This document shows, one piece after another, positions 5,134 through 25,605 of a DNA stretch of 64,000 bases (position 1 is the first letter of the stretch; each line of letters starts with the position of its first letter). The notes beneath the pieces were generated by a model. That model did no database searches. It saw nothing but the letters and a program-made list of their open reading frames with translations, and had not been told where the DNA came from. A program made the position numbers and the translations under genes. The DNA is from Thalassobium sp. (GTDB taxonomy: Bacteria > Pseudomonadota > Gammaproteobacteria > Pseudomonadales > Oceanobacteraceae): the NCBI GenBank assembly GCA_002733205.1, contig NVUW01000004.1, forward strand, positions 62,001 through 126,000, in the 5' to 3' direction.

Positions 5134-5144
5134 TACAAATAGAG

Positions 5145-5180: not shown

Positions 5181-5273
5181 TCTCAGAGTACGCACAGCAA
5201 CAGGCTAAAAACGCATATCTGACGTCGTTGTCTACACTTAAGGCATCTTCACTCAGAATGGATGCCACCCCTC

Positions 5274-6560
5274 ATGACCGTGCAACGTAAGCTGGTAATT
5301 GCTGCAGCTCTGCCTGCCATACTCACCATCATTCTGGTGATGGGCAAAGCCATTGCCGATATGCAGGTTCAACGCGACTACCTTATCGATCAGGTCAGCC
5401 GTTATCTGGCCAACAAGGATACAGTCCCTTCAGAGCAGGAACTGCAACGTTTTATGGCCAGCCAGTGGCAGGAAATTTTCAGCCAACAAGCCAGCGTCGC
5501 TATTCCCGTTCTGACCGCAGTGTCCATTGTGCTGATTATCTTATCGCTGCTCACCGTGCGCCGGATCACCAATGGTTTTACCCATCTGACTTCATCGGTC
5601 GAGACTCTGTCACGGCCAGAAACCCCGTTAACCTATCGCGTGCCGTTGCAAAATATGAATGAACTGCAACCTCTGGCTGAACGCCTTAACCGATTTATGC
5701 AGCGCGTTGATGATATGGTCGGAGGTATGGCCGACGCATCGGCAGCACTGAACCAAAGTTCATCAGTACTGAATAATAACTCCGCTGAAAATACCCGCCA
5801 TGCGCAAAGTATGTCGCGTATTATGGACGGTGTATCCAGTGCCATGAGCGAATTAATTTCTGCATCAGCCGAAATTACCCGTAATGTTCATCAGGCCCAC
5901 TCTCAGGTATCTGAGGTCAACAGTACCGGCCGCGCACTCAGCAACGATATTAAGGCACTGAATAATCAGTTTGGAGAACTGGGTAATATTATTAACAGCA
6001 GCTCTTCCGATGTCGCCGAGCTGAGCAATCAGGTCGATGGTATCTACGGCATCCTGCAAACAATCCGCGGCATTGCCGAGCAAACCAATCTGCTGGCACT
6101 GAATGCAGCCATTGAAGCGGCACGTGCCGGTGAACAAGGCCGGGGCTTTGCGGTCGTGGCCGACGAGGTACGTAATCTGGCCAGCAAAACCCAGAGCAGC
6201 ACCGGTGAAATTCAGGGTCTGATTGAAAACCTGAAACAAAGTGCCAATCGCTCCATTGATGCCATGACCAACAGCACCGAGGCCAGCGCTTCGATGGCGG
6301 CTTCTTTTGCTAAAGCCAACGATCAGATTCTGGGATTATTCGGCAGCCTGAACACCGTTAACGACCTTAACTCTGAAATTGCTGCCGCCAGTGAAGAGCA
6401 AAGCACCGTTATCAGTGGTATTAACCAACACCTGCAGGAAGCCAAAGAAATTGCGGTCTATACCCGCGAGGCCGCCCAATCTACCGGCAGCAAATCGTCT
6501 GAACTGGCCGGTATTGCCAACAAATTAAAAACCATGATTCAGGGCTTTCGCCTGAGCTGA
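5274..6560 (+). CDS. Methyl-accepting chemotaxis protein
   Basis: A 428-residue inner-membrane chemoreceptor. A first membrane helix (about residues 6-26) is followed by a small periplasmic part of some 50 residues, too short for a full sensor domain. Then come a second helix (about 75-97), HAMP (about 95-148) and a cytoplasmic coiled coil. The hairpin tip [20 protein letters not shown] lies near residues 266-285 and should bind CheA/CheW. ATG 5274 is chosen by alignment with the paralogous fragment at 4626; ATG 5262 is four codons upstream. A stem-loop terminator follows at 6569. The ligand is unknown, and the tiny periplasmic loop suggests membrane or cytoplasmic sensing. Confidence 0.92.
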
Positions 6561-6568
6561 ATATCAGG

Positions 6569-6613
6569 CCACTGCAATACGCAGGTGATGCGCATTGCAG
6601 TGGTGCTAATTTT
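6569..6613 (+). terminator. Terminator after the chemoreceptor gene
   Basis: CCACTGCAAT (6569-6578) pairs with ATTGCAGTGG (6594-6603), extended inward by ACGCA/TGCG, with TGCTAATTTTT after it. Confidence 0.75.
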
Positions 6614-6872
6614 TCTCGCAATCAGGCTACATAGCGGTACCATCCCTCAGGATCTCCCCCTGGATCACCCACAGGATCACCGGCCTTAACAACCTTTCCG
6701 CTGAACCTGAATATCTATCTTTATTCACCTTCTGCCTGCACCATAAAAACCTTGACCAGAGCTGTATGAAATCCGGACAATTTCGCTCAGGGACAGAATT
6801 ATTTTTATGTAATACCATCATGCATCACTATCAGAACGACAGCATGAACGATAAAACATCAGGAAAGGTATT
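6614..6872. other. Intergenic region upstream of the cyclase
   Basis: Contains three short GGATC-bearing repeats (about 6648-6680) and AT-rich sequence that probably holds the cyclase promoter. AGGAAAGG at 6860-6867 is its ribosome site. No gene is seen. Confidence 0.4.
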
Positions 6873-7472
6873 ATGCGGGTTAATGATCATTCACTGCTTG
6901 CAGAGTTACTGCAGCAGCATCACTTAAATCATAACTGTCCGGATTCAGCGCAGGCAGTGTGGCAAACCTATGGAACAACAGCAGCGGTACTGATTACCGA
7001 TATGAGCCGTTTTTCGGCCATTACCAAGGAAAAGGGCATTGTCTATTACCTGGCATTAATTCAGCGTATGCAGGGCATCGTTGAAGCCGTCACCCAAAAA
7101 TTTAACGGTACCCTGATCAAATACGTGGCCGACGATGCTTTTGTATTATTTGCCGACAGTGCTTCTGCCCTGAATGCATTACGCGAAATACGTGAGCTAT
7201 TACATCAGGATAACCAGCAATTCCCCCATCATCACAATATCGAAATTGCAGCAGGTATCGCCTTTGGTGAATTACTTAATTTTCACGACCGTGAAATCTT
7301 CGGCGATCCGGTTAATGAAGCCAGTAAACTGGGTGAAGATACCGCAGCCGCCTGGGAAATCCTGCTGACGGAATCTGCCTATCTGAATCTGCCGGCCAAG
7401 ATGCGCGAATATGACAAAGTCTGTGACCATAACTTCGGTGATCTGAGTATCCGCACCTATTATCTGAAGTGA
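6873..7472 (+). CDS. Stand-alone class III adenylate/guanylate cyclase domain
   Basis: 199 residues forming a single catalytic domain with no membrane, HAMP or sensor part. The two metal-binding aspartates appear as ITDMSRF (Asp43) and KYVADD (Asp87). Lys83 and Asp145 (FGDPVNEASK) occupy the positions that select adenine, so cAMP is the likelier product. The transition-state Arg usually found four residues after the conserved Asn is Lys152 here (N148-x3-K), so turnover may be reduced. The gene sits alone between terminators, beside a chemoreceptor and phospholipase A. Start ATG 6873 follows AGGAAAGG. Confidence 0.8.
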   Translation: MRVNDHSLLAELLQQHHLNHNCPDSAQAVWQTYGTTAAVLITDMSRFSAITKEKGIVYYLALIQRMQGIVEAVTQKFNGTLIKYVADDAFVLFADSASALNALREIRELLHQDNQQFPHHHNIEIAAGIAFGELLNFHDREIFGDPVNEASKLGEDTAAAWEILLTESAYLNLPAKMREYDKVCDHNFGDLSIRTYYLK

Positions 7473-7648
7473 AGTTCCGGAACAGGGTAAAAGCGGCTCT
7501 GGCGGCTTTGAATCTTTCGGCATAAAGCTGCCTGTTCAGCGGTGCCGGCGAACAGACCCGCCAATGCTCAACAGGCAAAGGCCACTTCTCAAATCCGGCA
7601 AAGCTATTTATGCTTGCAGCAACCATTTACAGGGAAAGGAAAACAACC

Positions 7649-8596
7649 ATGCAGAAGCGGTCTTTATGCTGTATCCACCCGGTTGCACTGGTGTTACTGC
7701 TTCTGCCTATGGCGATGCTTCAGGCAAATGAAGACAACAGTGGTTATGCGGGTTTGCAAAGTCATGAACCTATTTACATCGGCTACACCTGGGATGAAGA
7801 TGATGTCGGTTTTATGGACTTCAAACTCTCGCTGAAATATCCCATCTGGCACGATGCCAAACCCAAAGCCGCTGCCTTTGGTTTTCTGCCACACCCCTAC
7901 TTTGATTTCAGTGGTCGTTTCGGTCAGTACATCGGCACGCGGGAATCATCACCGGTGATTTCCAAACGCTTTAATCCGGAACTGATCGGCCGCTACTGGC
8001 TGCTACCGGAAGCCGGAAGCAATCTGCCCGCCAGCAGTTTTGATCTGATGTACGGCCACGAATCCAATGGTCAGAACGTCGGTGATTACAACAGCTATCT
8101 GGCAATGGAGCTGGAACTGGCGTTACAAGGGGAAGATTTAAAATACGCTGATGATTACATCAGCCGCGGCTGGGATTATGTCGGTGCCCTGTGGAGCCAG
8201 AACTGGGTCTCAGACAGTGGCCATCGGGTGACGACATTTCTGAAACTGCATTATTTTCTGGATGATGGTTTACTGCAGGGACCAGCAGAAGAATACAACA
8301 GCTGGGAAAATGACCGTGAAGGAAAAAACCGGCGAAAAGTCGATGGCATCAGTCTGTCGTATAAGCGCGATATAAGTTTGGGCAATGCTCTGCTCAGAGG
8401 CGAAAAAATATTCCTGCAGTATGTTACCGGAACAGAAAATACATTCCGTTTTAACACAGTACGTGCCGAGTTTTCATTTGTTATGGGCAACCTGCCGCTG
8501 ATGTTCTGGGTCAGTCATGGCTATAACAGTGACCTGGCGGATTACTACCGCGAGTTAAGCTCCGGTGGTATCGCTATTGAATTTCTCAGTATGTAG
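7649..8596 (+). CDS. pldA: Outer-membrane phospholipase A (OMPLA)
   Basis: 315 residues with a signal peptide (hydrophobic about residues 11-25, likely cut after LQA) and then a beta-barrel that hydrolyses phospholipids in the outer membrane. The catalytic His and Ser are in GHESNGQ (His137, Ser139). The third catalytic position, Asn in the SRSWN motif of the E. coli enzyme, reads SRGWD (Asp176) here. Start ATG 7649 is preceded by AGGGAAAGG. An upstream in-frame ATG at 7610 would put 13 extra residues before the signal peptide and is rejected. A copy of the efp terminator follows at 8619-8647. Confidence 0.88.
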   Translation: MQKRSLCCIHPVALVLLLLPMAMLQANEDNSGYAGLQSHEPIYIGYTWDEDDVGFMDFKLSLKYPIWHDAKPKAAAFGFLPHPYFDFSGRFGQYIGTRESSPVISKRFNPELIGRYWLLPEAGSNLPASSFDLMYGHESNGQNVGDYNSYLAMELELALQGEDLKYADDYISRGWDYVGALWSQNWVSDSGHRVTTFLKLHYFLDDGLLQGPAEEYNSWENDREGKNRRKVDGISLSYKRDISLGNALLRGEKIFLQYVTGTENTFRFNTVRAEFSFVMGNLPLMFWVSHGYNSDLADYYRELSSGGIAIEFLSM

Positions 8597-8610
8597 CTGG
8601 CATAAAAAGA

Positions 8611-8717
8611 ACAGATATAAAAAAATCTGCCGGAGCAGCTTTTTTTATGCAGCAATAAAAGCCAATCAGTTTTTTGCACGGTCTTTGAACTCACCGGTAC
8701 GGGTGTCGATTTCTACG
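8611..8717. repeat. Copy of the efp 3' end and its terminator
   Basis: This stretch matches 18917-19022 in the same orientation, about 85 percent identical by eye, with an exact 33-bp match at 8684-8716 against 18990-19022. It includes the efp terminator stem (8619-8647) and, on the minus strand, the last efp codons ending RAKN-stop against RAKS-stop in the real gene. It joins directly to chemoreceptor sequence at the shared TCTAC (8712-8716). Confidence 0.9.
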
Positions 8718-9103
8718 GCATCCTGCAAACAATCCGCGGCATTGCAGAACAAACCAATTTACTGGCGCTTAATGCGGTCATTGAAGTGGCACGTGCCGGT
8801 GAACGAGGCCGTGGTTTTACTGTGGTTGCTGATGAAGTACGTAATCTGGCCAGCAAAACCCAGAGCAGTACCGGAGAAATTCAGGGGCTGATTGAAAACC
8901 TGAAACAAAATGCCAATCGCTCTATTGATGCCATGACTAACAGCACCGATACCAGCGCTTCGATGGCGGCTTCTTTTGCTAAAGCCAACGATCAGATTCT
9001 GGGGTTATTCAGCAGTCTGAACAGCGTCAACGATCTGAACTCAGACATTGCAGCCGCCAGCGAAGAGCGGAGTACGGTCATCAGCGGCTTTCGCCTGAAC
9101 TGA
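8713..9103 (+). pseudogene. Chemoreceptor C-terminal fragment
   Basis: Corresponds to the chemoreceptor at 5274 from base 6043 to its stop. It covers the signalling hairpin tip (with changes such as AARAGEQ to VARAGER) and then an in-frame loss of about 42 codons: STVISG is joined to GFRLN where the intact gene has INQ...IQG in between. There is no membrane part, HAMP or credible start; the open frame continues back into efp-derived sequence. It is best seen as a pseudogene formed by duplication. Confidence 0.85.
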
Positions 9104-9130
9104 CCGGCATAAAAGGTAATGCGCGCAGGG

Positions 9131-10009
9131 TTATAGCCTGCGCACATCCACCGATACACTGAGCGTCGGATTTTCCCCACCGCCAAAAATAACGCCGCAT
9201 AAGGGCGTCACATCAAAATAATCCCGCCCCCAGGCGGTAATAATGTGCTGTTCACCGGCCATACAATTATTGGTCGGATCAAATTCGAACCATCCTTCTC
9301 CCGGAGCAAATACGGAAATCCAGGCATGGCTGGCATCGGCACCAAGCATTTTTTCCTGTCCGGGGGGCGGCAACGTTTCGAGGTAACCGGATACGTATTT
9401 GGCGGCAAATCCGAGTGCACGCAAACACCCAATCTGCAAATGGGCAAAGTCCTGGCATACGCCCTGTTTGTTCTGCATTACCTCATCAATAGGCGTTGCG
9501 ATGGTTGTCGCCTGCGGGCTGTAAGTAAATTCGCTGTAGATTTTCTGCGTTAACGCCATAACCGCCGACAGTAATGACTTTTCCGGCTGAAAAATACCAG
9601 CCGCATAGTCACGCAACGCATCATTGGCACGAATCATTGGCGAATCCAGCATAAACTCACGCGCCATTAAAACGGCTTCATCCTGATTATTCTGCATCTG
9701 CTGCAGCGCCGCGCCGCAGGTTATGCCCAGATCCAGATTCATTACCGTATCCTGAACATTGGTTTGCACATCGGTGGTGGCAATAATACGCAGGATTTTA
9801 TGCGGCTGTTGAATCTCAAAATGCTGCGCCCAGTTGCCGTAATAGTCTTCACGGCGCACGCTGAACGAAGCCGCTGGCTGAACGTCCAGCTGAGTATTAA
9901 TACATTGCTGCCGCCGTGTATTGCGTGGCATTAAATGCGCCAGGTTATAACAATGAGAAACCCGGCTTTGATACTGATACTCGGTAATATGACACACGCG
10001 GTAACGCAT
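9131..10009 (-). CDS. Transglutaminase-fold cysteine peptidase-like protein
   Basis: 292 residues: an N-terminal bacterial transglutaminase beta domain (about 1-90) and a transglutaminase core. The catalytic triad is Cys185 (GVCQDFAH), His228 (DASHAW) and Asp244 (FDPTNN). No signal peptide is seen, so it acts in the cytoplasm, either as a peptidase or as an amide-bond transferase. It is the last gene of the five-gene minus-strand cluster. Its ATG overlaps the stop of the ATP-grasp/alpha-E fusion (TGATG), so the two are translationally coupled. The protein has a PPP stretch (ETLPPPGQE), which would make its synthesis depend on EF-P. Confidence 0.85.
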   Translation of the reverse strand: MRYRVCHITEYQYQSRVSHCYNLAHLMPRNTRRQQCINTQLDVQPAASFSVRREDYYGNWAQHFEIQQPHKILRIIATTDVQTNVQDTVMNLDLGITCGAALQQMQNNQDEAVLMAREFMLDSPMIRANDALRDYAAGIFQPEKSLLSAVMALTQKIYSEFTYSPQATTIATPIDEVMQNKQGVCQDFAHLQIGCLRALGFAAKYVSGYLETLPPPGQEKMLGADASHAWISVFAPGEGWFEFDPTNNCMAGEQHIITAWGRDYFDVTPLCGVIFGGGENPTLSVSVDVRRL

Positions 10010-12564
10010 CAGAGACTCTCCCGGTTGCTGTGCACCAGCTGCTGGGAAGCTTCACGGTGATCAAAATATTTATCGGTAATCTGCTCGCTGATCTCAGCCA
10101 GTAACTCCCGGCAGCGGCTCATTGTTTCCAGTAAATGCGGACGAAGACCGGCATCGGTCTGAACCAGATTTTTCAGCGATGCCAATTTTATCAGCACTTC
10201 GGTTTCGAGCAGAGTTCGCTCTTCCCGGCTGAGTTCGTGCAAGCCGACGGCCGCTTTCGGTAAAGCACGTAAATGCTCCCCCAATTGCCCCAGCTGATAA
10301 ATTAATGAGCGCGGATTACTACTGTCCAGCAATACCAGATCAAGACTGGTATCAAGTACCATCCGGCCACGATAACGGCGACGGTAACTGATCAGACTTT
10401 CCAGCGATAATAATAACGCCTCCGCCAGTTTATTCTGATCCTGCGATGAAAATTCCGGAACCAGTAAATAATTCACCGCCAGACTGATCTGTTGTGCGCG
10501 TTCCAGTCGCCGCCCCATTTCCATAAAACGCCAGCCAAATCCACGGCTCATACTTTCCTGCGTCAGCCCGGCAAAGGCCATTAATGCAGTGACCAAAGGA
10601 TCAAGCGCTTCTTCCGGTGCCGAGCCCAGACTGGCGTTCAAATTACCGGGCAATACCTGCAATGCATCGCGGATATCGTTAATCACGCGGAATGTGTCGG
10701 ACGACAATAGTTCTTTGGTTTCGTCGGCGCAATACAGCATCGCATTCAGGCTGGTAGCAATGCTGTTGGTCAGGCTGCCGTCAGACACCAGCTGCTGAAG
10801 ACGCTGTTCCGCGGCAACGAAGCGATTATCGCTGGCTTCGTCGGCAGGCGCGGCAAGCGGTATAGCAGCCACCGCCAGCAAGGCCTGTAGTAAGGGTTGC
10901 TTAACCGCGTCACTGATAGGCTCTTCGCCATTCAGCAGCATAAAGGTTGTGCGTAACATGCGCAGGGTGGTTTCTGCACGCTCGGCATAACGTCCCATCC
11001 AGAACAGATTTTCCACCACCCGGCTGGGCAGGCTGATCAGATCGGCTTCACGCACCACCACGCTGTCATCCTGCGCACTGTCTGCCAGAACACGTTCAGG
11101 TTCGGAAGCCACAACCCAGGTATCTTTACTGCGGGCACCGGCCTGATTGGCAATAACAAAACTGTTTTCACTGTTGCCAACCCGGGTCAGACCACCAGGC
11201 ATCAGGGTGTAGGAAGAATCGCTGGCGACGGCAAAAGAACGCAGAATGGCCGGACGCGGAACCAGTGCATTGCCATTTTCAAACGTGGGAATATGTCCTG
11301 CAACGACCATAGGCTGAGCAACATATTGCAGCGGCTCGGCTTTAATTTTTGCCAGTAATTGTTGTTGCTCATCCGCGCTTAAACCGGCGACCTGAACACT
11401 GCGACTATCGAGGTTGCGGTAGACGGGTTTAATGACCAGGTCGGAGAAATTTTTCTGCACAAAATCGAGATCATTTTGATCACCGCACCAATAGGTTGGC
11501 ACCGATGGTAAACGCAATTCCCGCCCCAGAAGGGCTTTGGCTATCTCCGGCAAATAACGTAAAAACACCGGATTTTCCAGCACCCCGGAACCTAACGGAT
11601 TAGCCACCACCAGATTGCCAGCCCGCACAACTTCGAGTAAACCGGCCACTCCCAGACGCGAGTCAGAGCGTAATTCCACCGGATCACAGAACCAGTCATC
11701 CACCCGGCGTAATAAAACATCCACCCGGCTGAGACCATCAAGGGATTTCATCCACAGAAATCCGTTACGCACCACCAGATCGTCACTTTGCACCAACGGA
11801 AAACCGAGGTAGTTCGCCATATACGCATGCTCGAAATACGTTTCGTTGTGCGCGCCCGGCGTTAATACCGCGACTCTGGGTTGATGAATATTAGGAGACA
11901 GGCTGATCAGCTTCGCCCGCAGGCGCTGAAAAAAAGCCGCCAGCCGATGCACATGGCTGTCGCGAAACAAGCTGGGAAATACCCGCGACATAACGGTGCG
12001 ATTTTCCAGCGCATAACCGGCTCCGCTGGGTGACTGAGTACGGTCACCCAGCACCCACATACGGCCGTCAGCACCGCGCATTAAATCCACGGCATGAATA
12101 ATCAGGTCATGATCGCCGGGTAACTGAATACCATGGCAGGCACGCAGAAATCCGCGATGGCAAAATAAAGCCTCTGGCGGAATCACGCCTGTTTTAATTA
12201 AACGACGCTGACCATAAATATCGCGCAACAACAGATTGAATAATTCCGCCCGCTCCAGCAGACCGGCTTCAACATCGGCCCAGTCATCGCTGCTGATAAT
12301 ATTCGGGACAAGATCAAGTCCCCAGGTATGCGCAGGCGAGCTGGTATCACCGTATATGTTATAGGTTGCCCCATCATCCCGCAGGATACGCAGTGCTTTT
12401 TGCTGACGCTCGGCAAAGGCTTCCGCGCCCAATTCATCCAGACTGCCCAGCAGGTAATGCCAGTGCGGTTTGATCTGACCTTCGGCATCGAAAGCATCAT
12501 CCACCAACCCACTGACGGGCTGGTAGATCATCGCAGGGTTGTTGTTGGCTGGAGAAACACTCAT
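10009..12564 (-). CDS. Circularly permuted ATP-grasp / alpha-E fusion protein
   Basis: 851 residues combining two families that are usually separate. About residues 1-480 form a circularly permuted ATP-grasp ligase (DUF404/DUF407 type: IVRPVYRN-like lysine region as LVIKPVYRN, and GSKDTW-like ARSKDTWVVASEP). About residues 510-850 form an alpha-E (DUF403) helical domain beginning SRVVENLFWMGRYAERAE. ATP-grasp enzymes make amide bonds from a carboxyl phosphate. The alpha-E domain accompanies them in these operons and its biochemical role is not established. The same two domains occur as separate genes at 17002-18516 and 16067-17002, so this looks like a duplicated and fused set. Confidence 0.85.
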   Translation of the reverse strand: MSVSPANNNPAMIYQPVSGLVDDAFDAEGQIKPHWHYLLGSLDELGAEAFAERQQKALRILRDDGATYNIYGDTSSPAHTWGLDLVPNIISSDDWADVEAGLLERAELFNLLLRDIYGQRRLIKTGVIPPEALFCHRGFLRACHGIQLPGDHDLIIHAVDLMRGADGRMWVLGDRTQSPSGAGYALENRTVMSRVFPSLFRDSHVHRLAAFFQRLRAKLISLSPNIHQPRVAVLTPGAHNETYFEHAYMANYLGFPLVQSDDLVVRNGFLWMKSLDGLSRVDVLLRRVDDWFCDPVELRSDSRLGVAGLLEVVRAGNLVVANPLGSGVLENPVFLRYLPEIAKALLGRELRLPSVPTYWCGDQNDLDFVQKNFSDLVIKPVYRNLDSRSVQVAGLSADEQQQLLAKIKAEPLQYVAQPMVVAGHIPTFENGNALVPRPAILRSFAVASDSSYTLMPGGLTRVGNSENSFVIANQAGARSKDTWVVASEPERVLADSAQDDSVVVREADLISLPSRVVENLFWMGRYAERAETTLRMLRTTFMLLNGEEPISDAVKQPLLQALLAVAAIPLAAPADEASDNRFVAAEQRLQQLVSDGSLTNSIATSLNAMLYCADETKELLSSDTFRVINDIRDALQVLPGNLNASLGSAPEEALDPLVTALMAFAGLTQESMSRGFGWRFMEMGRRLERAQQISLAVNYLLVPEFSSQDQNKLAEALLLSLESLISYRRRYRGRMVLDTSLDLVLLDSSNPRSLIYQLGQLGEHLRALPKAAVGLHELSREERTLLETEVLIKLASLKNLVQTDAGLRPHLLETMSRCRELLAEISEQITDKYFDHREASQQLVHSNRESL

Positions 12565-12621
12565 AAAACCGCAATATCCATTGTTGTGTACCTGCCGCTC
12601 AGGTTGAACCTGATGTTCATC

Positions 12622-15600
12622 TTAACCCATCCGGCGCAGATCAAGGGTATTCGGATAATCGGCCGGCGCTTCTTCCGGCGGCGGACTCATGGGTTTCGGA
12701 TCATGGTGCGGGAAGAACTGACGTAAAGCATCAATATCCGGTCGGGGTGAATACACACCCTGAGTATGGCCCAGCTCGCTGAACCGATTCACCCGGCGAG
12801 ACTCCGCCTCAAAAGCATTGACCGGAAAGCTGTCATAGCTGCGGCCACCGGGATGGCTGACATGATAAGTACAACCGCCAATCGAGCGGCCATTCCAGGT
12901 ATCAATCAGATCAAATACCAGCGGCGCATGAATATCGACCGTTGGATGCAACGCCGAAGGCGGAGCCCAGGCTTTGTAGCGCACGCCAGCCACAGATTCA
13001 CCTTTGCGCCCGGTTTCACTCAGCGGAACGCGGCGGCCGTTACAGGCCAGCACATAGCGCTCAGCCGTCATACCCGTCACTTTAACCTGCAGGCGCTCAA
13101 CCGATGAATCCACATAACGGGCAGTACCAAAGCTACTGACCTCTTCGCCCAATACGTTCCAGGGTTCAATCGCCCAGCGCAATTCAATGCTGATGTCGTC
13201 CAACTGTACCCGGCCATAATGTGGAAAGCGGAATTCTTCAAATGGACGCAGCCATTCAGCGCGGAAATCAATACCATGCGCCTGCAGGTCTGCCGCCACA
13301 TCGCAGACATCGCGCCAGACAAAATGCGGCAGCATAAATTTATCGTGTAATTGTGTGCCCCAGCGTACCAAAGGTTTTTTATAAGGCTGGCGCCAGAAAC
13401 GAGCGACCAGCGCCCGGATTAATAATGCCTGCACCAGCGCCATACGCGAATGCGGTGGCATTTCAAAGCCACGGAATTCGAGCAAGCCTAAACGACCACT
13501 GCTGCTGCCGGGGGCAAATAATTTATCGATACAGAATTCAGCACGATGGGTATTGCCGGTTACGTCGATCAATAAATTACGCAATATACGATCAACCAAC
13601 CAGGGTTGTGGCACTTCTCCATCGGGTATCTGCTGGAAAGCGATTTCCAGCTCATACAGTGATTCATCACGTGCTTCATCCACCCGCGGCGCCTGACTGG
13701 TCGGGCCAACAAAAGCACCGGAGAATAAATAAGACAACGATGGATGATGCTGCCAGAACGTAACAAAGCTGCGCAGCAAATCCGGCCGGCGCAATAACGG
13801 ACTGTCCGCCGCCGAGTGACTTCCCAGCGTAATATGATTACCGCCACCAGTACCGGTATGACGGCCATCCAGCATAAATTTCTCGGCACCCAAACGTGAC
13901 TCACGGGCAGCCTGATAAAGCTCGGTCATATTACTGACCAGATCACGCCAGCGGCTGGCCGGGTGAATATTCACTTCAATCACACCCGGATCGGGTGTTA
14001 CCAACAATTTCTGCAGCCGAGGATCACGCGGAGGCTCATAGCCTTCGATCATTAACGGTAATTTTAATTGCGCCGCACAGGCCTCCAGCTGCGCCAATAA
14101 CTGAACGTAATGCTCCAGATAACTTAACGGCGGCATAAACACATGTAATTTTCCGTCCCGCGCTTCGATCGCCAGGGCCGTACGCACAACGTCTTCAGCA
14201 TCATTCGCAGTCGCGTCTTCTGTTGTTTCCTCTGCCTCTTTTTTAACACCTTGTGGCGCTTGTTTTTGCACGTCGGCGGACTGCACAGCCGATAACGGAG
14301 CAAACGCCACCTGAGCCAGCTGCTCATGAGGAGGCAACGGCGGGTGCTCACGGAAAGGGTCCGCTTCAATTGATGGCGGTAACTCTTTCACCCAAGGCAG
14401 ACTGTCCAGCGGTAAACGCAGACCGATGGGGGAATCGCCGGGAATTAATACCAGACGGCCACGACGGAACTCCCACAAACTGGATTGCCAGCAATTGCTG
14501 CTCATTTTCCAGCTTAACGGCAAAATAAATCCGGTTGGCGTATCCAACCCCTGATCCAGTACACGCGCCAGACGCCGGCGCGTCAGACTGTCTTTACTGC
14601 CGGCAATCTGTGCATCCAGGTTGGCCGGTAAATTTTGCTCCTGTAATAAATAATGCAGGCCATCTTCATAGGCCGGCTGTACATAACCGGCATCCAACCC
14701 CAGACGGGTACAGAGCAGGCGGGAAAATGCCTCAGCCTGAGCAAGCTCGTGTCCATAATCCTGATCCACCCGAGCCAACAGACCCGGATTACGCCATAAC
14801 GGTTCGCCATCGGTACGCCAGAACAATCCCAGCGCCCAGCGCGGAACTTCTTCACCCGGATACCATTTTCCCTGACCGTAATGCAGCAAACCGCGTGGCG
14901 CAAAATGATTACGTAAACGCAGCAATAAACTCTTTGCCAGAGCCAATTTTTCTTTGCCCAGCGCAGCGGTATTCCATTGCGCCGATTCCATATCATCAAC
15001 CGATACAAACGTCGGCTCGCCCCCCATGGTCAGACGCACATCGTCGTGTTCCAGCATGGCATCAACCGCATCTCCAAGGGCTATAACATCCGCCCATTGA
15101 TCATCGCTGTACGGCTTGGTGACTCTGGGATCTTCCAGAATCCGTTCGACAGTATTGCTGAAATCAAAGCTGACTTTGCATTTATCCGTTGCCCCCTGAA
15201 TCGGCGCGGCTGATACCGGATCGGGTGTGCATGCCAGAGGAATATGCCCTTCCCCGGCAAACAATCCGGAGGTTGGATCAAGACCCACCCAACCAGCACC
15301 GGGAATAAATACCTCACACCAGGCGTGCAGATCGGTAAAATCTTTTTCCGGCCCGGAAGGGCCATCCAGCGCTTTTTCATCGGCGGTTAACTGCACCAGA
15401 TAACCGGAAGCAAAACGCGCAGCCAGACCACTGTGCCGCAGTAATTGCACCAATAACCAGGCGCTGTCACGGCAGGAACCTTTGGCCAACTTCAGTGTTT
15501 CTTCCGGTGTCTGCACGCCGGGTTCCAGCCGGACGCAATATTCAACCAATGCCTGTACCTGCTGATTCACCGCCACCAGAAAATCAATCGTGCGTTGTTT

Positions 15601-16011
15601 TTGTCGCGGGACCTTAGCCAATTGCTTAGCAAATCGCCGGCCTTCTGTACTGGTTTTAAGATAAGGCGTTAATTCTTTTTTCAGTTGTTTATCGTATTTG
15701 AATGGAAAGTTCTCAGCATACTCTTCCAGAAAAAAATCAAAGGGATTAATAACCGTCATATCGGCAATAACTTCCACCTCAACCGATAATTCACGGGTTT
15801 TCTCCGGAAATACGATACGTGCCAGAAAATTACCGTAGGCATCCTGCTGCCAGTTAATAAAGTGCTCTGCCGGAGTCACTTTCAGACTGTAGCTGTGAAT
15901 AGGAGTACGGCTGTGAGGTGCCGGACGAAGACGGATCACATGAGGCGAAAGATTAACCGCGCGATCAAAGTGGTAATACGTATTGTGCTGTAGTGCAACC
16001 CGGATGGTCAT
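12622..16011 (-). CDS. Transglutaminase core fused to DUF2126
   Basis: 1129 residues. The N-terminal transglutaminase beta domain and core carry Cys180 (GSCRDSAW), His229 (DLHAW) and Asp245 (GLDPTSG). The remainder is DUF2126, with the motifs LTMGGEPTFVS, PGVIEVNIHPASRW and GTGGGNHITLG. The E-x-N and G-x-G-x-H arrangement recalls the glutamine-synthetase/GCS ligase fold, as has been proposed for this family; I state that from memory. If so, the protein carries both an amide-cleaving or transferring domain and a ligase. The start ATG follows GGAGACACT. Near the C-terminus are prolines (MSPPPEEAP) likely to need EF-P. Confidence 0.85.
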   Translation of the reverse strand: MTIRVALQHNTYYHFDRAVNLSPHVIRLRPAPHSRTPIHSYSLKVTPAEHFINWQQDAYGNFLARIVFPEKTRELSVEVEVIADMTVINPFDFFLEEYAENFPFKYDKQLKKELTPYLKTSTEGRRFAKQLAKVPRQKQRTIDFLVAVNQQVQALVEYCVRLEPGVQTPEETLKLAKGSCRDSAWLLVQLLRHSGLAARFASGYLVQLTADEKALDGPSGPEKDFTDLHAWCEVFIPGAGWVGLDPTSGLFAGEGHIPLACTPDPVSAAPIQGATDKCKVSFDFSNTVERILEDPRVTKPYSDDQWADVIALGDAVDAMLEHDDVRLTMGGEPTFVSVDDMESAQWNTAALGKEKLALAKSLLLRLRNHFAPRGLLHYGQGKWYPGEEVPRWALGLFWRTDGEPLWRNPGLLARVDQDYGHELAQAEAFSRLLCTRLGLDAGYVQPAYEDGLHYLLQEQNLPANLDAQIAGSKDSLTRRRLARVLDQGLDTPTGFILPLSWKMSSNCWQSSLWEFRRGRLVLIPGDSPIGLRLPLDSLPWVKELPPSIEADPFREHPPLPPHEQLAQVAFAPLSAVQSADVQKQAPQGVKKEAEETTEDATANDAEDVVRTALAIEARDGKLHVFMPPLSYLEHYVQLLAQLEACAAQLKLPLMIEGYEPPRDPRLQKLLVTPDPGVIEVNIHPASRWRDLVSNMTELYQAARESRLGAEKFMLDGRHTGTGGGNHITLGSHSAADSPLLRRPDLLRSFVTFWQHHPSLSYLFSGAFVGPTSQAPRVDEARDESLYELEIAFQQIPDGEVPQPWLVDRILRNLLIDVTGNTHRAEFCIDKLFAPGSSSGRLGLLEFRGFEMPPHSRMALVQALLIRALVARFWRQPYKKPLVRWGTQLHDKFMLPHFVWRDVCDVAADLQAHGIDFRAEWLRPFEEFRFPHYGRVQLDDISIELRWAIEPWNVLGEEVSSFGTARYVDSSVERLQVKVTGMTAERYVLACNGRRVPLSETGRKGESVAGVRYKAWAPPSALHPTVDIHAPLVFDLIDTWNGRSIGGCTYHVSHPGGRSYDSFPVNAFEAESRRVNRFSELGHTQGVYSPRPDIDALRQFFPHHDPKPMSPPPEEAPADYPNTLDLRRMG

Positions 16012-16066
16012 AGTGTCTCCGACACAAATTTACTGAGGCCTGTTTGTACAATCTGGCTGGCAACGA

Positions 16067-17002
16067 TTACTGATCGGATAAAAACCAGGTTTTTCCAATC
16101 AGAGTATGCGCTTCGGCCATGGTCAGTTGCAGGGTATTAAGCATATCGCGGAAGACTTCGCCTAATTCTTCCGGTTCAGCACAAGCAGGAATTTCTTCCT
16201 GTAGCTGGCGTAAAAAAGTAACCACCGCTTTGGATTTTGGCAGACCGCTGGCAACATCAGTCATTTGCGTGACGCAATACAGCAGCGAACGGGGAAAATC
16301 CTCATCAGCCAACAAATAGCGCACCACCAGATCGCCCTTCACCGACGATCGTGTTGTCCGTCGGTATGGCTGATCGGCATTTAATGAACGCAATACATTG
16401 CCCCAGATAATCTGCCGGCTGTTGACCGCGAAGTCATCGTCCTCAACCTGCAGAATCGCCGCGACGCCGGCATCCAGATTGCGTGTGGTCATATCCGCAC
16501 GCTCCAGATTCTGACCCAGCTGCACCATATCCCAGGCTTCGTCACGTGGCATATTGACATACCAGAGACCGACCACCTGCTGACAGGCTTTAATGATATT
16601 ATCGAGAAACTCATGGCGATTACTGCGGTTAATTCCCTGAGTCAGGTTTTCCTGAACATAGAGTGTTAACTCATTCACCATTTCCCAGGTTTCCGGTGGA
16701 ATCACATCGCGGGTGGTACGGATATTTTCCCGTACTGCCTGCAATGAACTGATAACGGAGGAATAATTGCTTTCGTCGCCCAGTAGAAACTTCACCACAT
16801 TACGTTCATCACGCACGGAGTAACGTTCGTTAAAATCCTGCTCCAGACTGTTAATCACAATCAGGTTATACCAGCCCAGATTAACCTGGCGTGGCAAGTC
16901 GAATAACAATTTGTCATAAATACTGAGCAGGCGCGCCGTACTCTCCACGCGTTCCAGATAACGCGCCGCCCAATAAATCCGTTCTGCAACTTTTGATAAC
17001 AT
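16067..17002 (-). CDS. Alpha-E domain protein (DUF403)
   Basis: 311 residues, almost wholly helical, starting MLSKVAERIYWAARYLERVE, the diagnostic alpha-E opening with repeated charged pairs. Such proteins occur beside circularly permuted ATP-grasp and transglutaminase genes; no activity has been shown for the domain. Its ATG overlaps the stop of the ATP-grasp gene as TAATG, which means translational coupling and suggests a stoichiometric complex. It is a homologue of the C-terminal half of the protein at 10009-12564. Confidence 0.88.
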   Translation of the reverse strand: MLSKVAERIYWAARYLERVESTARLLSIYDKLLFDLPRQVNLGWYNLIVINSLEQDFNERYSVRDERNVVKFLLGDESNYSSVISSLQAVRENIRTTRDVIPPETWEMVNELTLYVQENLTQGINRSNRHEFLDNIIKACQQVVGLWYVNMPRDEAWDMVQLGQNLERADMTTRNLDAGVAAILQVEDDDFAVNSRQIIWGNVLRSLNADQPYRRTTRSSVKGDLVVRYLLADEDFPRSLLYCVTQMTDVASGLPKSKAVVTFLRQLQEEIPACAEPEELGEVFRDMLNTLQLTMAEAHTLIGKTWFLSDQ

Positions 17003-18516
17003 TATTCACCTGCCTTACTTGTCTTATCACTGCTGCCTTGCGACTGGCTCTGGCTTTGCTTCTGCGTTACGTTATCGACAATCCAGGTATCCTTGCTGCC
17101 GCCGCCCTGCGAAGAGTTAACCACCAGCGAGCCTTTTTTCATGGCAACACGGGTCAGGCCGCCGGTCGTTACATAAGTATCCCGGCCTTGCAGAATAAAC
17201 GGACGTAAATCCAGGTGACGTGGTTCAAGTTTGTTTTTACTGATCAGCGCCGGTGCCGTAGAAAGTGCCAGCGTTGGCTGAGCAATATAATTACGCGGGT
17301 TAGCTTTAATTAATTCGGCAAAGGTTTCACGTTCTTTTTTGGTCGAGTGCGGACCAATCAGCATACCGTAGCCACCGGATTCGTTGGCCGGTTTCACCAC
17401 CAGTTTATCGAGGTTGGCCAATACATATTCACGTTGTTTATCGTCGTAACACAAAAAGGTTTCAACGTTCGGAATCAGGGGCTCTTCACCCAGATAATAT
17501 TTAATAATCTGGGGGACAAAGGCGTACACCACTTTATCATCGGCAACACCGGCACCCGGAGCATTCGCCAGAGCCACATTACCCGCACGCCAGGCACGCA
17601 TTAAGCCCGCCACACCTAATACAGATTCCGAGTCAAAAACTTCCGGATCAAGAAACAGATCGTCGATACGGCGATAAATCACATCAACCCGTTCCAGACC
17701 AGCAATGGTTTTCATATACACGCAGTCGTCATCACCAACGACAAGATCACTGCCTTCGATTAATTCTGCCCCCATACGCTGGGCAAGGAAGGCATGTTCA
17801 AAATACGCCGAGTTATAAATACCCGGTGTCATTACCACAATCACCGGTTTACTCACACGACGCGGCGACAGCGAACTCAGGGTTTCGAATAAATGTTCCG
17901 GATAATCACCCACAGGAGCGATATTCACCTTCTCGAATACTTCCGGAATAACCCGTTTCATAATCGAGCGGTTTTCCAGCATATAAGACACACCGGACGG
18001 TACGCGCAGGTTATCTTCCAGTACATAAAACTGGCCGTCTTTATCGCGCACCAGATCCGTGCCGCAGACATGAGCCCAGACGCCAAAACGCGGTCTGACG
18101 CCTTCGCATTCTTTACGGTAATTTTTGGATTGCTTGAGGACAAACTCCGGGATGATGCCGTCGCGGATAATTTTCTGATCGTGATACAGATCGTCAATAA
18201 ACATATTCAGCGCCGTCAGCCGCTGCTTCAGGCCCGCTGCTGTTTTATCCCACTGACTGCGGGAAATAACCCGCGGTACAATATCAAAAGGCCAGGCACG
18301 GTCGATATTGCCACCTTCGGTGTATACCGTGAACGACACCCCCATTTCTTTGATGGTGGCATCGGCAGCAATTTTGCGCGAAATAATGTCGTCTTCCGAC
18401 AGCGAACTCAGATAGTTAACAAGACGTTTGGCGGGCTGGCGGGGGTTGCCGGCACTGCTGAACAGTTCGTCATAAAACTCACCCTCTGGGGTGTATTCCT
18501 TCCACTCGATCGACAT
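17002..18516 (-). CDS. Circularly permuted ATP-grasp protein
   Basis: 504 residues of the DUF404/DUF407 type. Recognisable parts are the FDIVPRVI segment, LEDNLRVPSGVSYMLENR (about residues 168-185), VVKPANESGGYGM (the nucleotide-binding lysine region) and GGGSKDTWIVDN near the end, followed by a Gln/Ser-rich tail. It would be a peptide or amide ligase of unknown substrate. It is the first gene of the five-gene minus-strand cluster; the start ATG follows AAGGAGTGAT. A 65-codon frame of doubtful coding value ends one base before it. Confidence 0.88.
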   Translation of the reverse strand: MSIEWKEYTPEGEFYDELFSSAGNPRQPAKRLVNYLSSLSEDDIISRKIAADATIKEMGVSFTVYTEGGNIDRAWPFDIVPRVISRSQWDKTAAGLKQRLTALNMFIDDLYHDQKIIRDGIIPEFVLKQSKNYRKECEGVRPRFGVWAHVCGTDLVRDKDGQFYVLEDNLRVPSGVSYMLENRSIMKRVIPEVFEKVNIAPVGDYPEHLFETLSSLSPRRVSKPVIVVMTPGIYNSAYFEHAFLAQRMGAELIEGSDLVVGDDDCVYMKTIAGLERVDVIYRRIDDLFLDPEVFDSESVLGVAGLMRAWRAGNVALANAPGAGVADDKVVYAFVPQIIKYYLGEEPLIPNVETFLCYDDKQREYVLANLDKLVVKPANESGGYGMLIGPHSTKKERETFAELIKANPRNYIAQPTLALSTAPALISKNKLEPRHLDLRPFILQGRDTYVTTGGLTRVAMKKGSLVVNSSQGGGSKDTWIVDNVTQKQSQSQSQGSSDKTSKAGE

Positions 18517-18924
18517 ATCACTCCTTGCCGTCTGCTGTCAGACGCAATGTTTCTGTTCCGCCAGTCCCATCTCGTCCTGCCGCATCGTTCTGCTGCAGTG
18601 TCCTGTTGTTGCGTACTGTTGTAGCTCCCAGTAGTCGCGCCCTGTTGTAGCGCAGCTGGATTTCAACGGCGTTACCGAACGCACCAAAAAGGCTCACAGC
18701 GAACAAAGTTGCCATTGAGTCGGGACGGTTAGTCAGACCTCTTTCAAGATCAGTGCCAGTATTTGAGTGTGCTGCCTGACCGCTGAAGACAAAACATCTG
18801 TCGATACTTCTGCAACTAAAAGCTGAGTTTTTGCAGGCTTAAGAAAAGCCGAACATGGCTTCGAAAAGACGATGTAGCCAAAAGATGAATCAAAAGAAGA
18901 GGCTGAAAGAGATATGACAGGTAT
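18517..18924. other. Leader region of the transglutaminase/ATP-grasp cluster
   Basis: About 400 bp between the first cluster gene and the efp terminator. A minus-strand frame at 18518-18715 (65 codons, hydrophobic start MATLFAVSLFGAFG) ends one base before the ATP-grasp start but has no ribosome site and uses several rare codons (AGG, CGA, CTA). The promoter for the cluster must lie here or further upstream, but I cannot pick one out with confidence. Confidence 0.4.
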
Positions 18925-18951
18925 AAAAAAAGCTGCCGAAGCAGCTTTTTT
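18925..18951. terminator. Bidirectional terminator downstream of efp
   Basis: AAAAAAAGCTGC, loop CGAA, GCAGCTTTTTT. The A-run before and the T-run after the stem let it work on both strands. It lies 21 bp after the efp stop. A diverged copy is at 8619-8647. Confidence 0.9.
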
Positions 18952-18971
18952 ATGTGGCGGGAAAAAGCAGA

Positions 18972-19538
18972 TCAGCTTTTTGCGCGGCCTTTGAACTCAC
19001 CGGTACGGGTGTCGATTTCTACCGCATCACCGATTTCAACAAATGCAGCAACCTGCAGTTCGTAACCGTTTTCCAGAGTGGCCATTTTCATCACTTTACC
19101 AGAGGTATCACCACGAACCGCAGGCTCGGTGTAAGACACGGTACGGACGATGGTGGTTGGCAGTTCGATGCTGATCGCTTTGCCTTCATAGAAAACCGCT
19201 TCACACACGTCGGTCATGCCGTCGGTCATAAAGTTCAGGGTATCGCCCAGGTTTTCTTTTTCCACTTCGATCTGGTTGTACTCTTCGTCCATAAACACGT
19301 ACAGCGGGTCTGCGAAGTAAGAGTAGGTTACCTGACTGCGTTCCAGAATGATCGGTTCGAGTTTGTCGTCAGCCTTGAAAACCGGCTCCTGCGACGCACC
19401 GGTCAGCAGGTTCTTCAGTTTCATCTTTACAACAGCGGCGTTACGGCCGGATTTGTTGAATTCAGCTTTCAGGACAACCCATGCCTGACCATTCAGGCTC
19501 AGTACCTGACCGGCACGAAATTCGTTAGCAGTTTTCAT
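18972..19538 (-). CDS. efp: Elongation factor P
   Basis: 188 residues, full length for EF-P, which rescues ribosomes stalled at polyproline stretches. The modified loop residue is Arg32 in [10 protein letters not shown] rather than the lysine of E. coli EF-P. This is the type rhamnosylated by EarP, whose gene lies 39 bp upstream on the same strand. All three beta-barrel domains are present, ending [16 protein letters not shown] bidirectional terminator follows at 18925-18951. A copy of the last 13 or so codons with the terminator occurs 10.3 kb away at 8611-8717. Confidence 0.97.
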
Positions 19539-19577
19539 AGAGAATTACCGGATATCAGTCGTTAAAAATGCGCTGCA

Positions 19578-20795
19578 CTATACCCGATCCGTGGCGTAAT
19601 GCACGAGATTTGATGCGAGGTCTCCAAGCGTCAACAGCTGCTGCTGCCAGGCCTGTGAATGGGCCTGCCAGAGCGGTAATTGTTGCAGCACCTCAGCCCA
19701 GTCTGCATGGGCGCCGGAGCCATTAAGCGGTGCCGCCAAAGGGGCCTGATTCCAGTGCCTGAATGCCGTTATCAGCAGCGACGATAATGAGGGTTTATCA
19801 CCACTCTCAAAGCGCTTCGTGCCGTGCAGATAATGCTGCAGAAAAGCGTCCAGCTTAAGCAGATGTGCGTCGTCTTCCTGACGGTAAATATGCCACAGCA
19901 TCGGTTTGCCCAACATCTGCGCACGCACGAACGATTCTTCTCCGCGCACAAAATTCAGGTCGCACATCGCCAGCAACTGGTCATAACGTTGCTGCGACAT
20001 AAACGGCATCACAGAAATATTTAATGATGCGCGGCGATAGGTATTACCTGCCGCCGTCACTTCGCCCAGCCAGGCATCCAGACCGGCCGATATACGCCCC
20101 GCCGGAACCAACAGATGCACGCTCTGCGGGTGCGCGGCCAACGCATCCAGCAACCCTTCCAGTGCCGGGTTTTCATAGGCAAACAGGCTGATCTGCAACG
20201 CGTATCCGGCCAGAGTTTCCGCCAGGCCAAACTCGGCCAGAAACGCCTGCCGTGCCAGCGGCTGCGCCATGTGTTGCGGCAACAACGCCAACTCCGGTTC
20301 ATACAACAGGCCACCGGTACCGGCGACAAAACCGGGAAAGAAAAAGGTCTTGCTCATGTTGTGCACCGGCGATTGGCTGAGATGAAAGCCAGGCACCCAA
20401 TCTTCGGCACTCAGATACTCCAGATTAATCCAGCACGCGGCCTGACGGCGCTGCGCCATGGCGGCGATATAACGGTCGGGTAACTCACAGGCAAAGGCCT
20501 CAATCACCACATCACCGGTCTGCTGCGGACTGAGCGGCGCAAAGTCCTCTGTCCAGTGACGGATAATAATGCCCTGCTGTTGTTGCTCGGCCTGGTTGAT
20601 ATCCAGCGCCGGACACAAGGCGCAAAAACTGACCAGATCATCCACCCACAGCGTTACCTGCTGGCCATGCTGCTGACGTAATTGCCGGGCAAGACGCCAG
20701 CACACACCGATATCGCCGAAGTTATCGATCACCCGGCAGAACAAATGCCAGTGGCGGACGGGCGGCAGGTCAGGCATGACGGTCATGGGCAGCAT
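19578..20795 (-). CDS. earP: Protein-arginine rhamnosyltransferase EarP
   Basis: 405 residues of the DUF2331/EarP family, a GT-B glycosyltransferase that moves rhamnose from dTDP-rhamnose to Arg32 of EF-P. Seen are the N-terminal DNFGDIGVCWRLARQL with the conserved aspartates and the C-terminal RGEESFVRAQ motif that holds the nucleotide sugar. It is directly upstream of efp on the same strand, the usual pair. Three in-frame ATGs (20795, 20786, 20777) precede the conserved region and none has a clear ribosome site, so the exact start is uncertain. Confidence 0.95.
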   Translation of the reverse strand: MLPMTVMPDLPPVRHWHLFCRVIDNFGDIGVCWRLARQLRQQHGQQVTLWVDDLVSFCALCPALDINQAEQQQQGIIIRHWTEDFAPLSPQQTGDVVIEAFACELPDRYIAAMAQRRQAACWINLEYLSAEDWVPGFHLSQSPVHNMSKTFFFPGFVAGTGGLLYEPELALLPQHMAQPLARQAFLAEFGLAETLAGYALQISLFAYENPALEGLLDALAAHPQSVHLLVPAGRISAGLDAWLGEVTAAGNTYRRASLNISVMPFMSQQRYDQLLAMCDLNFVRGEESFVRAQMLGKPMLWHIYRQEDDAHLLKLDAFLQHYLHGTKRFESGDKPSLSSLLITAFRHWNQAPLAAPLNGSGAHADWAEVLQQLPLWQAHSQAWQQQLLTLGDLASNLVHYATDRV

Positions 20796-22391: not shown

Positions 22392-22429
22392 CATTAGTTA
22401 TACATCAAGCCTCCTATGTATAACTAATG
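22392..22429. promoter_or_regulatory. 14-bp inverted repeat ending on the start codon of the FeS photolyase
   Basis: CATTAGTTATACAT (22392-22405) and ATGTATAACTAATG (22416-22429) are perfect inverted repeats around CAAGCCTCCT. The right arm finishes with the ATG of the photolyase gene. As DNA it is a large operator of the ATGTATAA type, in the range bound by LitR/CarH-like MerR proteins that control light genes. As RNA it would fold a 14-bp stem that hides the start codon. No Shine-Dalgarno sequence is present in the loop; the loop instead carries CCTCCT. Confidence 0.75.
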
Positions 22430-23989
22430 CCAAAACTGGGTCTTATTCTCGCCGATCAACTTACTCCCTCGCTGGCCAGCCTGCGCGCGCTGAACCCGCA
22501 ACAGGACATACTGCTGCTGGCGGAAGTGGCGGAAGAAACCACCTACGTTGCCCACCATGTGCAGAAAATTGCCCTGCTGTTTTCGGCGATGCGTCACTTT
22601 GCTGAAGAACTAAGGCGTGCTGGCTGGACCGTGATCTACCGCCCGCTGGATGCACCGGATAATGACCACAGTCTGCTGGATGTGGTGCAGCGCACCGTCA
22701 CTGCGCAAGGCTGCAGCGAGCTGGTGCTGACCCAGTGTGGCGAATACCGCCTGCAGCACGCCATGAACAACGAATGGTCAGCGCAGCTTGGCGTGCCGCT
22801 TCAGGTCTTTGAAGACGACCGCTTTATCTGCCCAACCGCCGACTTCTCCCGCTGGGCCAACGGCCGCAAACAGTTGCGCATGGAATACTTCTACCGCGAT
22901 ATGCGGCGCAAAACCGGTCTGCTGATGGAAGGCGACCAACCCGTTGGCGGGCAATGGAATTTCGATGCCGACAACCGCGCCGCCTATAAAGGCGAAGTGC
23001 CGGTGCCGGACGCCCTGAACTTCAGCCGCGATGCTATCGATAACGACGTACTTGAGCTGGTGAGCAACCGCTTCGCTCAACCGCACAATCAGCATCCCGG
23101 CCAGCTACACCCCTTCCGCTGGGCGACCACGCGTGAGCAGGCGCTCACGGCGCTGGAGCATTTTATTCAACATCGCCTGCCGCATTTTGGCCGCTATCAG
23201 GATGCCATGGTCAGCCGTGAGGCACTTGGCGAGCGTGCCGACACTCTGTTTCACAGCCTGCTGTCGCCCTATATCAATTGCGGCCTGCTGACACCACTGG
23301 AAGTGTGCAAAGCCGCTGAAGCGGCGTATTTCCACGGCCAGGTGCCACTGGCCGCCGCCGAAGGATTTATCCGCCAGATCATCGGCTGGCGCGAATATGT
23401 GCGCGGCATTTACTGGGCCTATATGCCGCAATACGCCAGCCGTAACAGCCAGCACAATGACCGTGCCCTGCCGCACTATTACTGGAGTGGCAACACCCAA
23501 ATGCACTGCATGAGTGAGTGCTTTCGTACCACCTTTGATAACGCCTACGCGCACCATATTCAGCGTTTAATGGTGACGGGAAATTTCGCCCTGCTGGCCG
23601 GAATCCGCCCGCAGGAGATTTGCGACTGGTATCTGGCGGTCTACGCCGACGCCTACGACTGGGTAGAGCTGCCCAATACGCTGGGCATGATGATGCACGC
23701 CGACGGCGGCCTTTTGGGCAGCAAACCTTACTGCGCTTCCGGCAGTTATATTGCCCGTCAGTCCGACTACTGCGGCCATTGCCGCTACAACGTCAAAACC
23801 AGCGACCAGCCGGACAGCTGCCCGTTCAACAGCCTGTACTGGCACTTTTTAATCCGCCACCGCGACAGCTTCGCACGTAATCCGCGCATGGCCATGATGT
23901 ATCGCAGTTATGAGCGCATGGCAGAAACCAAACAGCAGGCCATTCTGGCCCGGGCAGAGCACTGCCTGATCAATCTGGAGGCGTTGTAA
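22427..23989 (+). CDS. Iron-sulphur bacterial cryptochrome/(6-4) photolyase (FeS-BCP, PhrB/CryB type)
   Basis: 520 residues beginning LGLILADQLT, the family opening. Four cysteines for a [4Fe-4S] cluster are at 361, 449, 452 and 465. Their spacing of 88, 3 and 13 is that of the Agrobacterium PhrB cluster ligands as I recall them. The FAD-binding helical part includes GNFALLAG and WVELPNTLGM. Members repair (6-4) photoproducts or act as blue-light receptors. It opens an operon with DUF2256 and two further photolyase-family genes. A long palindrome covers its start codon, so it is probably under tight, likely light-linked, control. Confidence 0.93.
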   Translation: MPKLGLILADQLTPSLASLRALNPQQDILLLAEVAEETTYVAHHVQKIALLFSAMRHFAEELRRAGWTVIYRPLDAPDNDHSLLDVVQRTVTAQGCSELVLTQCGEYRLQHAMNNEWSAQLGVPLQVFEDDRFICPTADFSRWANGRKQLRMEYFYRDMRRKTGLLMEGDQPVGGQWNFDADNRAAYKGEVPVPDALNFSRDAIDNDVLELVSNRFAQPHNQHPGQLHPFRWATTREQALTALEHFIQHRLPHFGRYQDAMVSREALGERADTLFHSLLSPYINCGLLTPLEVCKAAEAAYFHGQVPLAAAEGFIRQIIGWREYVRGIYWAYMPQYASRNSQHNDRALPHYYWSGNTQMHCMSECFRTTFDNAYAHHIQRLMVTGNFALLAGIRPQEICDWYLAVYADAYDWVELPNTLGMMMHADGGLLGSKPYCASGSYIARQSDYCGHCRYNVKTSDQPDSCPFNSLYWHFLIRHRDSFARNPRMAMMYRSYERMAETKQQAILARAEHCLINLEAL

Positions 23990-23991
23990 CC

Positions 23992-25595: not shown

Positions 25596-25605
25596 GGCGC
25601 CGTTG

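Follow-up and report, generated by a model that had tools for sequence, protein, structure and literature searches.

Systems that join amidoligases with Anbu, a relative of the proteasome, were predicted by Iyer et al. 2009, as cited in PMC5666114 and PMC6376114, and the function of Anbu and its partner genes is still open. As far as the available text of these papers describes it, the classical four-gene Anbu operon carries domains of the ATP-grasp (A), alpha-E (E) and transglutaminase (T) types in adjacent, co-directional genes. In this study, a five-gene cluster was analysed in a 64,000-nucleotide stretch of DNA from the marine bacterium Thalassobium sp. (assembly GCA_002733205.1, contig NVUW01000004.1, positions 62,001 to 126,000; hereafter the window). 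The kind of system is already known, namely that of the predicted amidoligase/Anbu systems; genes for circularly permuted (CP) ATP-grasp, alpha-E and transglutaminase proteins likewise stand together in one direction. The cluster differs from the Anbu operon in that no Anbu gene lies within it (Anbu is encoded on contig C20, the cluster on contig C5) and in that it carries an added DUF2126 domain and a second, fused ATP-grasp/alpha-E gene (A~E) with a degenerate ligase site. Comparison with its relatives indicates that A~E is probably a conserved non-catalytic ligase partner. In the literature searched, which did not include Iyer et al. 2009, no description was found of ligase-site loss in such a fused paralogue or of a live copy paired with it, and the word DUF2126 was found in no paper.

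Related operons are known from other bacteria. BCAM1233-1236 of Burkholderia cenocepacia likewise comprises DUF404/DUF407 (CP-ATP-grasp), DUF403 (alpha-E), transglutaminase-like and large transglutaminase-like genes; it has four genes, no A~E fusion is named in the available text, and it is NtrC- and sigma54-dependent (PMC5491218), whereas regulation of the window cluster could not be demonstrated. PP_2685-2688 of Pseudomonas putida shares the transglutaminase-like and CP-ATP-grasp genes and is raised under nitrogen limitation, but unlike the cluster it has a proteasome-beta-like (Anbu) gene, and the available parts of PMC3325844 and PMC8050072 mention no A~E fusion. In the Rlo operon of Pseudomonas, an ATP-grasp protein 24 percent identical to RimK is paired with an inactive transglutaminase and accompanied by a membrane protein and an aspartic protease (PMC12239564, available text). 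Rlo thus sets a precedent for a system of this sort with a dead partner, although the dead part in Rlo is the transglutaminase and in the window cluster the ligase.

Each of the five genes is a minus-strand open reading frame, and transcription runs in the order A, E, TD, A~E, T. Gene A (17002..18516) encodes a stand-alone circularly permuted ATP-grasp protein, a predicted active carboxylate-amine ligase (Pfam CP_ATPgrasp_2, E 6.5e-167, also CP_ATPgrasp_1), and E (16067..17002) a stand-alone alpha-E protein (Pfam Alpha-E, 2.2e-75). TD (12622..16011) consists of Bact_transglu_N, Transglut_core and DUF2126 (Pfam, E 0, 1349.5 bits). A~E (10009..12564; Pfam CP_ATPgrasp_2 and Alpha-E) is the fusion, a probable non-catalytic partner, and T (9131..10009; Pfam Bact_transglu_N and Transglut_core) encodes a short transglutaminase-like cysteine-peptidase protein with an intact triad. 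The stop of A and the start of E overlap by one base at 17002, and those of A~E and T by one base at 10009; one-base overlaps were also seen in relatives, e.g. L047 and L052, the latter being the five-gene locus of the isolate Thalassolituus maritimus. The overlaps could reflect a fixed stoichiometry, as the original prediction proposed. The gaps calculated from the coordinates are 55 bases for E/TD and 57 bases for TD/A~E. Open reading frames and Pfam profile searches thus bear out the extent (9131-18516), domain assignments and two start-stop overlaps that the original prediction, made from the sequence, had given for the set; its theme of peptide ligation and cleavage and its kinship to the Anbu operon were also supported. 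Of 80 named loci, 26 show the same gene order, A-E-TD-A~E-T, as do 5 of 60 survey stretches, so the cluster is not a chance assembly. Its nearest relatives come from an unclassified Pseudomonadota metagenome-assembled genome, Thalassolituus and other Oceanospirillaceae.

The ligase site was examined in an alignment of 84 stand-alone A and 72 A~E proteins, from which two A~E frames shorter than 780 residues (L079, L117) had been removed. E167, D168, N169, the GG-x-G loop (381, 382, 384), K328, H434, D436 and N467 are invariant among the A proteins, all 84 of which have intact E-x-N and GG-x-G motifs. In the ATP-grasp half of A~E, N169 and the glycine loop are kept in 0 of 72 and E167 in 2 of 72 (L078, L084), while K328 is replaced by P in 60, N467 by S in 55 and R171 by Q in 71. 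The alpha-E half, compared between 70 fused and 81 stand-alone proteins, has lost a second set of residues. Stand-alone E proteins keep R91, E92, N93, R95, R174 and W200 in 79 to 81 cases, and the counts for fused versus stand-alone proteins are 2 vs 81 for R91, 1 vs 79 for E92, 1 vs 79 for N93, 7 vs 81 for R95, 0 vs 77 for D170, 8 vs 81 for R174 and 1 vs 81 for W200. The whole R-E-N-x-R motif is present in 77/81 stand-alone and 0/70 fused proteins. Other positions of the fused alpha-E half are kept: W11 in 70, R14 in 69, R18 in 70, G163 in 70, E167 in 69 and P237 in 67 of 70. Since residue sets were lost in both halves, the pattern suggests that they belong to one active site spanning A and E; the lost residues, above all R-E-N-x-R of alpha-E, thus predict where a possible shared site would lie.

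With the site of A~E degenerate, only A and the DUF2126 domain are left as predicted active ligases. The cluster had been described as two complete sets with up to three ligase domains; neither description holds, as the fused ATP-grasp lacks the E-x-N and glycine-loop residues. Loss of active-site residues, named beforehand as a sign against the prediction, was found in one of the five proteins (A~E).

The degenerate copy is conserved. A and A~E were parted by a single branch (SH-aLRT 100) in a tree of 45 randomly drawn rows of each, i.e. 90 of 156 rows. Purifying selection acts on A~E in the comparison with L047 (pN 0.195, pS 0.69), though less strongly than on A (pN 0.072, pS 0.63); the comparisons with L116 and L120 were invalid for A~E and T, minus-strand genes having been compared on the wrong strand. 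A~E occurs from Pseudomonadota to Bacteroidota and Poribacteria, and it is followed by T in 51/52 named loci and 20/21 survey loci. Among the genomes surveyed across the class, 22 have A~E, as recognised from long alpha-E frames and fetched stretches. Each of the 22 has a further alpha-E match and 20 have DUF2126; A~E was not found in the remaining 57 of the 79 alpha-E genomes (one long frame, G247, 807, was unfetched). A conserved yet degenerate ligase copy suggests a built-in helper or regulator. Such an apparently inactive twin is a natural control and a handle on the open function of Anbu and its partners. An independent fusion was seen in one genome (L172, 5241-7877), where a canonical A that has kept E-x-N is joined to alpha-E and a degenerate A~E lies nearby.

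The closest solved structure to A is 3n6x, filed as a putative glutathionylspermidine synthase, and its intact motifs predict A to be an active ATP-grasp ligase. Alpha-E, which bears the R-E-N-x-R motif, matched no solved structure when searched by sequence. The Cys-His-Asp triad of the transglutaminase domain is kept in 79, 77 and 79 of 79 T proteins and in 51/51 TD proteins at each position. For the residue counts of T and of the alpha-E proteins, survey sequences were limited by length to 290-460 residues for E, 780-905 for the fusion and 250-345 for T. A fold search of a model of the DUF2126 domain returned the glutamine-synthetase fold, which makes this domain of TD a putative amidoligase; identity to enzymes of the glutamine synthetase/GmaS fold is about 10 percent, and unlike them DUF2126 is fused to a transglutaminase domain. 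When TD was searched against solved structures by sequence, only its transglutaminase part matched, at low E-value. DUF2126 has many invariant polar columns, of which 16 chosen from that list were recounted, so that their invariance is no independent test; by motif likeness to glutamine synthetase they are candidate equivalents of its catalytic residues. Further DUF2126 relatives were seen. One stretch (L169, 1-9936, genome G163) has three consecutive DUF2126 genes, two with lower scores. In G184, G043, G154 and G048, DUF2126 is matched only partially (e.g. positions 23-160, 343-826) by frames 713 to 716 residues long, and these genomes appear to hold a second DUF2126 family of shorter proteins.

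Several reports connect such genes with nitrogen status, as far as the available parts of these papers go. BCAM1233-1236 is among the targets common to NtrC and sigma54 (PMC5491218), P. putida PP2685-2687 were raised 6.6- to 11.1-fold in nitrogen-limited versus carbon-limited culture (PMC3325844), and PP_2685 and PP_2688 are nitrogen-sensitive genes whose promoters went into sensor constructs (PMC8050072). A sigma54 site is listed before a CP_ATPgrasp gene of Bradyrhizobium (PMC13207237), and in a marine metagenome a correlation with urea metabolism was found (PMC3597751). Leaders were scanned against control leaders (717 for sigma54-type sites and 716 for NtrC palindromes, lead genes presumed). 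Sites of the sigma54 type that match 9 or more of the 11 bases preceded A in 16/54, TD in 17/78, A~E in 0/31, Anbu in 1/24 and controls in 24/717 cases; with at least 10 bases, there were 7 for A, 0 for TD and 9 for controls. A perfect NtrC palindrome was found for TD in 5/78, A in 1/54, Anbu in 1/24, A~E in 0/31 and controls in 1/716. In the presumed promoter region upstream of the cluster (18517..18920, minus strand, about 400 bases), the best sigma54-like match was TGGCACTGATCTTGA, without the -12 GC, and the best NtrC-like palindrome had 8 of 10 bases. The cluster of this genome, too, may be under nitrogen control.

Our best explanation, which we favour with modest confidence, is a system of the Anbu-operon kind that ligates and cleaves amide bonds, probably unusual peptide bonds, with a non-catalytic A~E partner, and that is nitrogen-controlled in some relatives. 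Its gene content, motif loss, conservation, co-occurrence and modelled DUF2126 fold are computed results; the complex, its regulation by A~E, the chemistry and the product are put forward as a model. A and E would together form an ATP-dependent ligase, and the DUF2126 domain of TD, to which a transglutaminase-like cysteine-peptidase domain is attached, would be a second ligase, of glutamine-synthetase fold. T would act as a second transglutaminase-like peptidase or acyltransferase. A~E, a long-separated paralogue in which both the ligase site and R-E-N-x-R are lost and other residues are still constrained, would most likely be a non-catalytic partner, scaffolding or regulating the A and E ligase and passing the product to T. 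Anbu, encoded elsewhere in this genome, may contribute in trans, and in some relatives nitrogen limitation would turn the system on through sigma54/NtrC.

Several results weigh against this explanation. Co-expressed Anbu-operon proteins of Y. bercovieri, with Anbu as the bait, gave no specific interaction (PMC6376114, available text), and protein expression from the Anbu operon was unchanged under various other conditions in the part of PMC5666114 available, which speaks against nitrogen control. No convincing sigma54 or NtrC site was seen in the window upstream region or before A in six close relatives (best sigma54-type score 8, one NtrC-like 9). The p-values of the leader counts are too small, as the loci are related and gene starts were guessed. 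A profile alignment of A to E. coli glutathionylspermidine synthetase was not obtained. We take the E-x-N and D positions of A to be the counterparts of metal ligands D318/E330/N332 in that enzyme, and the letters at those numbers fit; E167 and N169 as candidate magnesium ligands are mapped solely through these presumed positions.

The product may be a small soluble peptide or polyamine conjugate, a nitrogen or redox metabolite like glutathionylspermidine, and not a protein tag. This alternative, compatible with our explanation and with a chance somewhat short of even, would agree with the nearness of A to 3n6x and with nitrogen-status control in relatives; however, the name of 3n6x is an annotation and not a tested function, and no dedicated transporter or substrate gene was seen beside the cluster in the window by eye, no systematic search having been made.

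A~E might still be an enzyme with a re-tooled site, its ATP-grasp binding nucleotide or metal in another way, or it might serve as a ligand-binding substrate sensor; this reading is unlikely though worth weighing. In its favour, D154 is retained in 68/72 and K375 in 57/72 (R in 14), R282 and R283 are present in 69 and 67 and K475 and D476 in 70 and 72, and switched residues are conserved too, e.g. Q for R171 in 71/72 and G for S177 in 72/72. These stand against the loss of N169 and the glycine loop in 72/72 and of E167 in 70/72, together with an alpha-E half that has R-E-N-x-R in 0/70.

The original prediction had noted the cluster to be without a proteasome-like gene, which is correct for the cluster and the window; but an Anbu gene elsewhere in the genome, named beforehand as a sign against the prediction, was found. 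Proteasome-family proteins were matched twice in the source genome (4.15 Mb, 22 contigs, 86.9 percent complete), once on contig C8 and once on C20. The match on C20 (61484-62203) is Anbu, as five Anbu-type sequences of solved structure match its protein at 1e-65 to 1e-90; the protein begins Met-Thr and has Asp17 and Lys32 counted from that Thr, which completes the triad Thr1, Asp17, Lys32 in the numbering of the available text of PMC6376114. The gene is solitary; its neighbours are a ferrochelatase-like gene and one for a small membrane protein (names by eye). The match on C8 is about the length of HslV. Both alpha-E and both Bact_transglu_N matches of the genome lie inside the cluster, which leaves no sign of a separate classical Anbu operon in this incomplete assembly.

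In the survey of 274 genomes across the class, DUF2126 was found in 50, Anbu in 69 and alpha-E in 79, with Anbu sought by one query protein and two of its matches (G022, G170) spanning only half of the query. Anbu was present in 44/50 DUF2126 and 66/79 alpha-E genomes, and all 50 DUF2126 genomes had alpha-E. Within the alpha-E genomes DUF2126 did not predict Anbu (44/50 vs 22/29, p 0.21, in tests that ignore relatedness), so alpha-E looks like the hub of the co-occurrence. Among five-gene genomes, 12/26 had an Anbu match and 14/26 had none, and in two (L075, L085) Anbu lies beside the cluster; further DUF2126 genomes had a match in 20/49. Four named loci (L079, L091, L097, L115) were omitted from the latter search and from the stop-codon listing, L083 was not covered, and one short Anbu frame was removed before alignments.

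These counts also bear on whether the A~E-T module substitutes for Anbu, leaving Anbu dispensable once the module is present, which is improbable. Anbu was found in 51/57 alpha-E survey genomes without A~E vs 15/22 with it (p 0.039) and, over all 121 DUF2126 rows, in 30/32 vs 42/89, an analysis that omits four fragmented DUF2126 genomes (G010, G033, G093, G157); the 14 five-gene genomes without a match also fit. However, independent pairs on the TD tree were not significant (median p 0.375, 9 to 12 pairs), and for DUF2126 genomes the survey or named rows alone gave p 0.07 and 0.08. The source genome has both Anbu and A~E-T, and many genomes are drafts, with completeness of the named ones not given and a single Anbu query used. 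Replacement of Anbu by A~E-T is thus suggestive and a lead only. A bolder form of our explanation, to which we give little credence, has A~E as a pseudo-ligase paired with the live copy as a regulated two-lobed machine, which with T would replace Anbu trimming in nitrogen-starved cells and make Anbu losable. In the five-gene genomes without an Anbu match the system may work Anbu-free, and the role of Anbu would then be open to genetics in harmless bacteria from the sea or soil.

That A~E is a decaying duplicate without function is highly improbable and was rejected on the purifying selection, for although it shows the lowest conservation of the set against L047 (A 89, TD 82, E 75, T 73, A~E 70 percent) and 3 of 40 long matches have one stop codon (G314, G334, G345), the other 37 have none, its order beside T is conserved and its spread is wide.

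PADLOC gave no match for any of the five proteins, and a defence system was rejected as a reading; NCBIfam also gave no match. No RNA element was found in 8900-19000 at gathering thresholds, and no clearly conserved small upstream peptide gene was seen by eye in the printed part of a 440-base upstream alignment of 11 loci, which leaves its absence unproven. Directly upstream of the cluster, EF-P stands beside an EarP-like rhamnosyltransferase gene (18972-20795, named by eye), and a hairpin with a T run, read by eye, lies between the EF-P gene and the cluster. On its other side, an intact chemotaxis receptor gene lies between N-terminal-like and closely similar C-terminal fragments (4578-5051, 5262-6560, 8786-9103, by eye), and these fragments in 4578-9103 are apparently broken duplicate copies. 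Three consecutive photolyase/cryptochrome-type genes (named by eye) occupy 22427-27192 on the plus strand.
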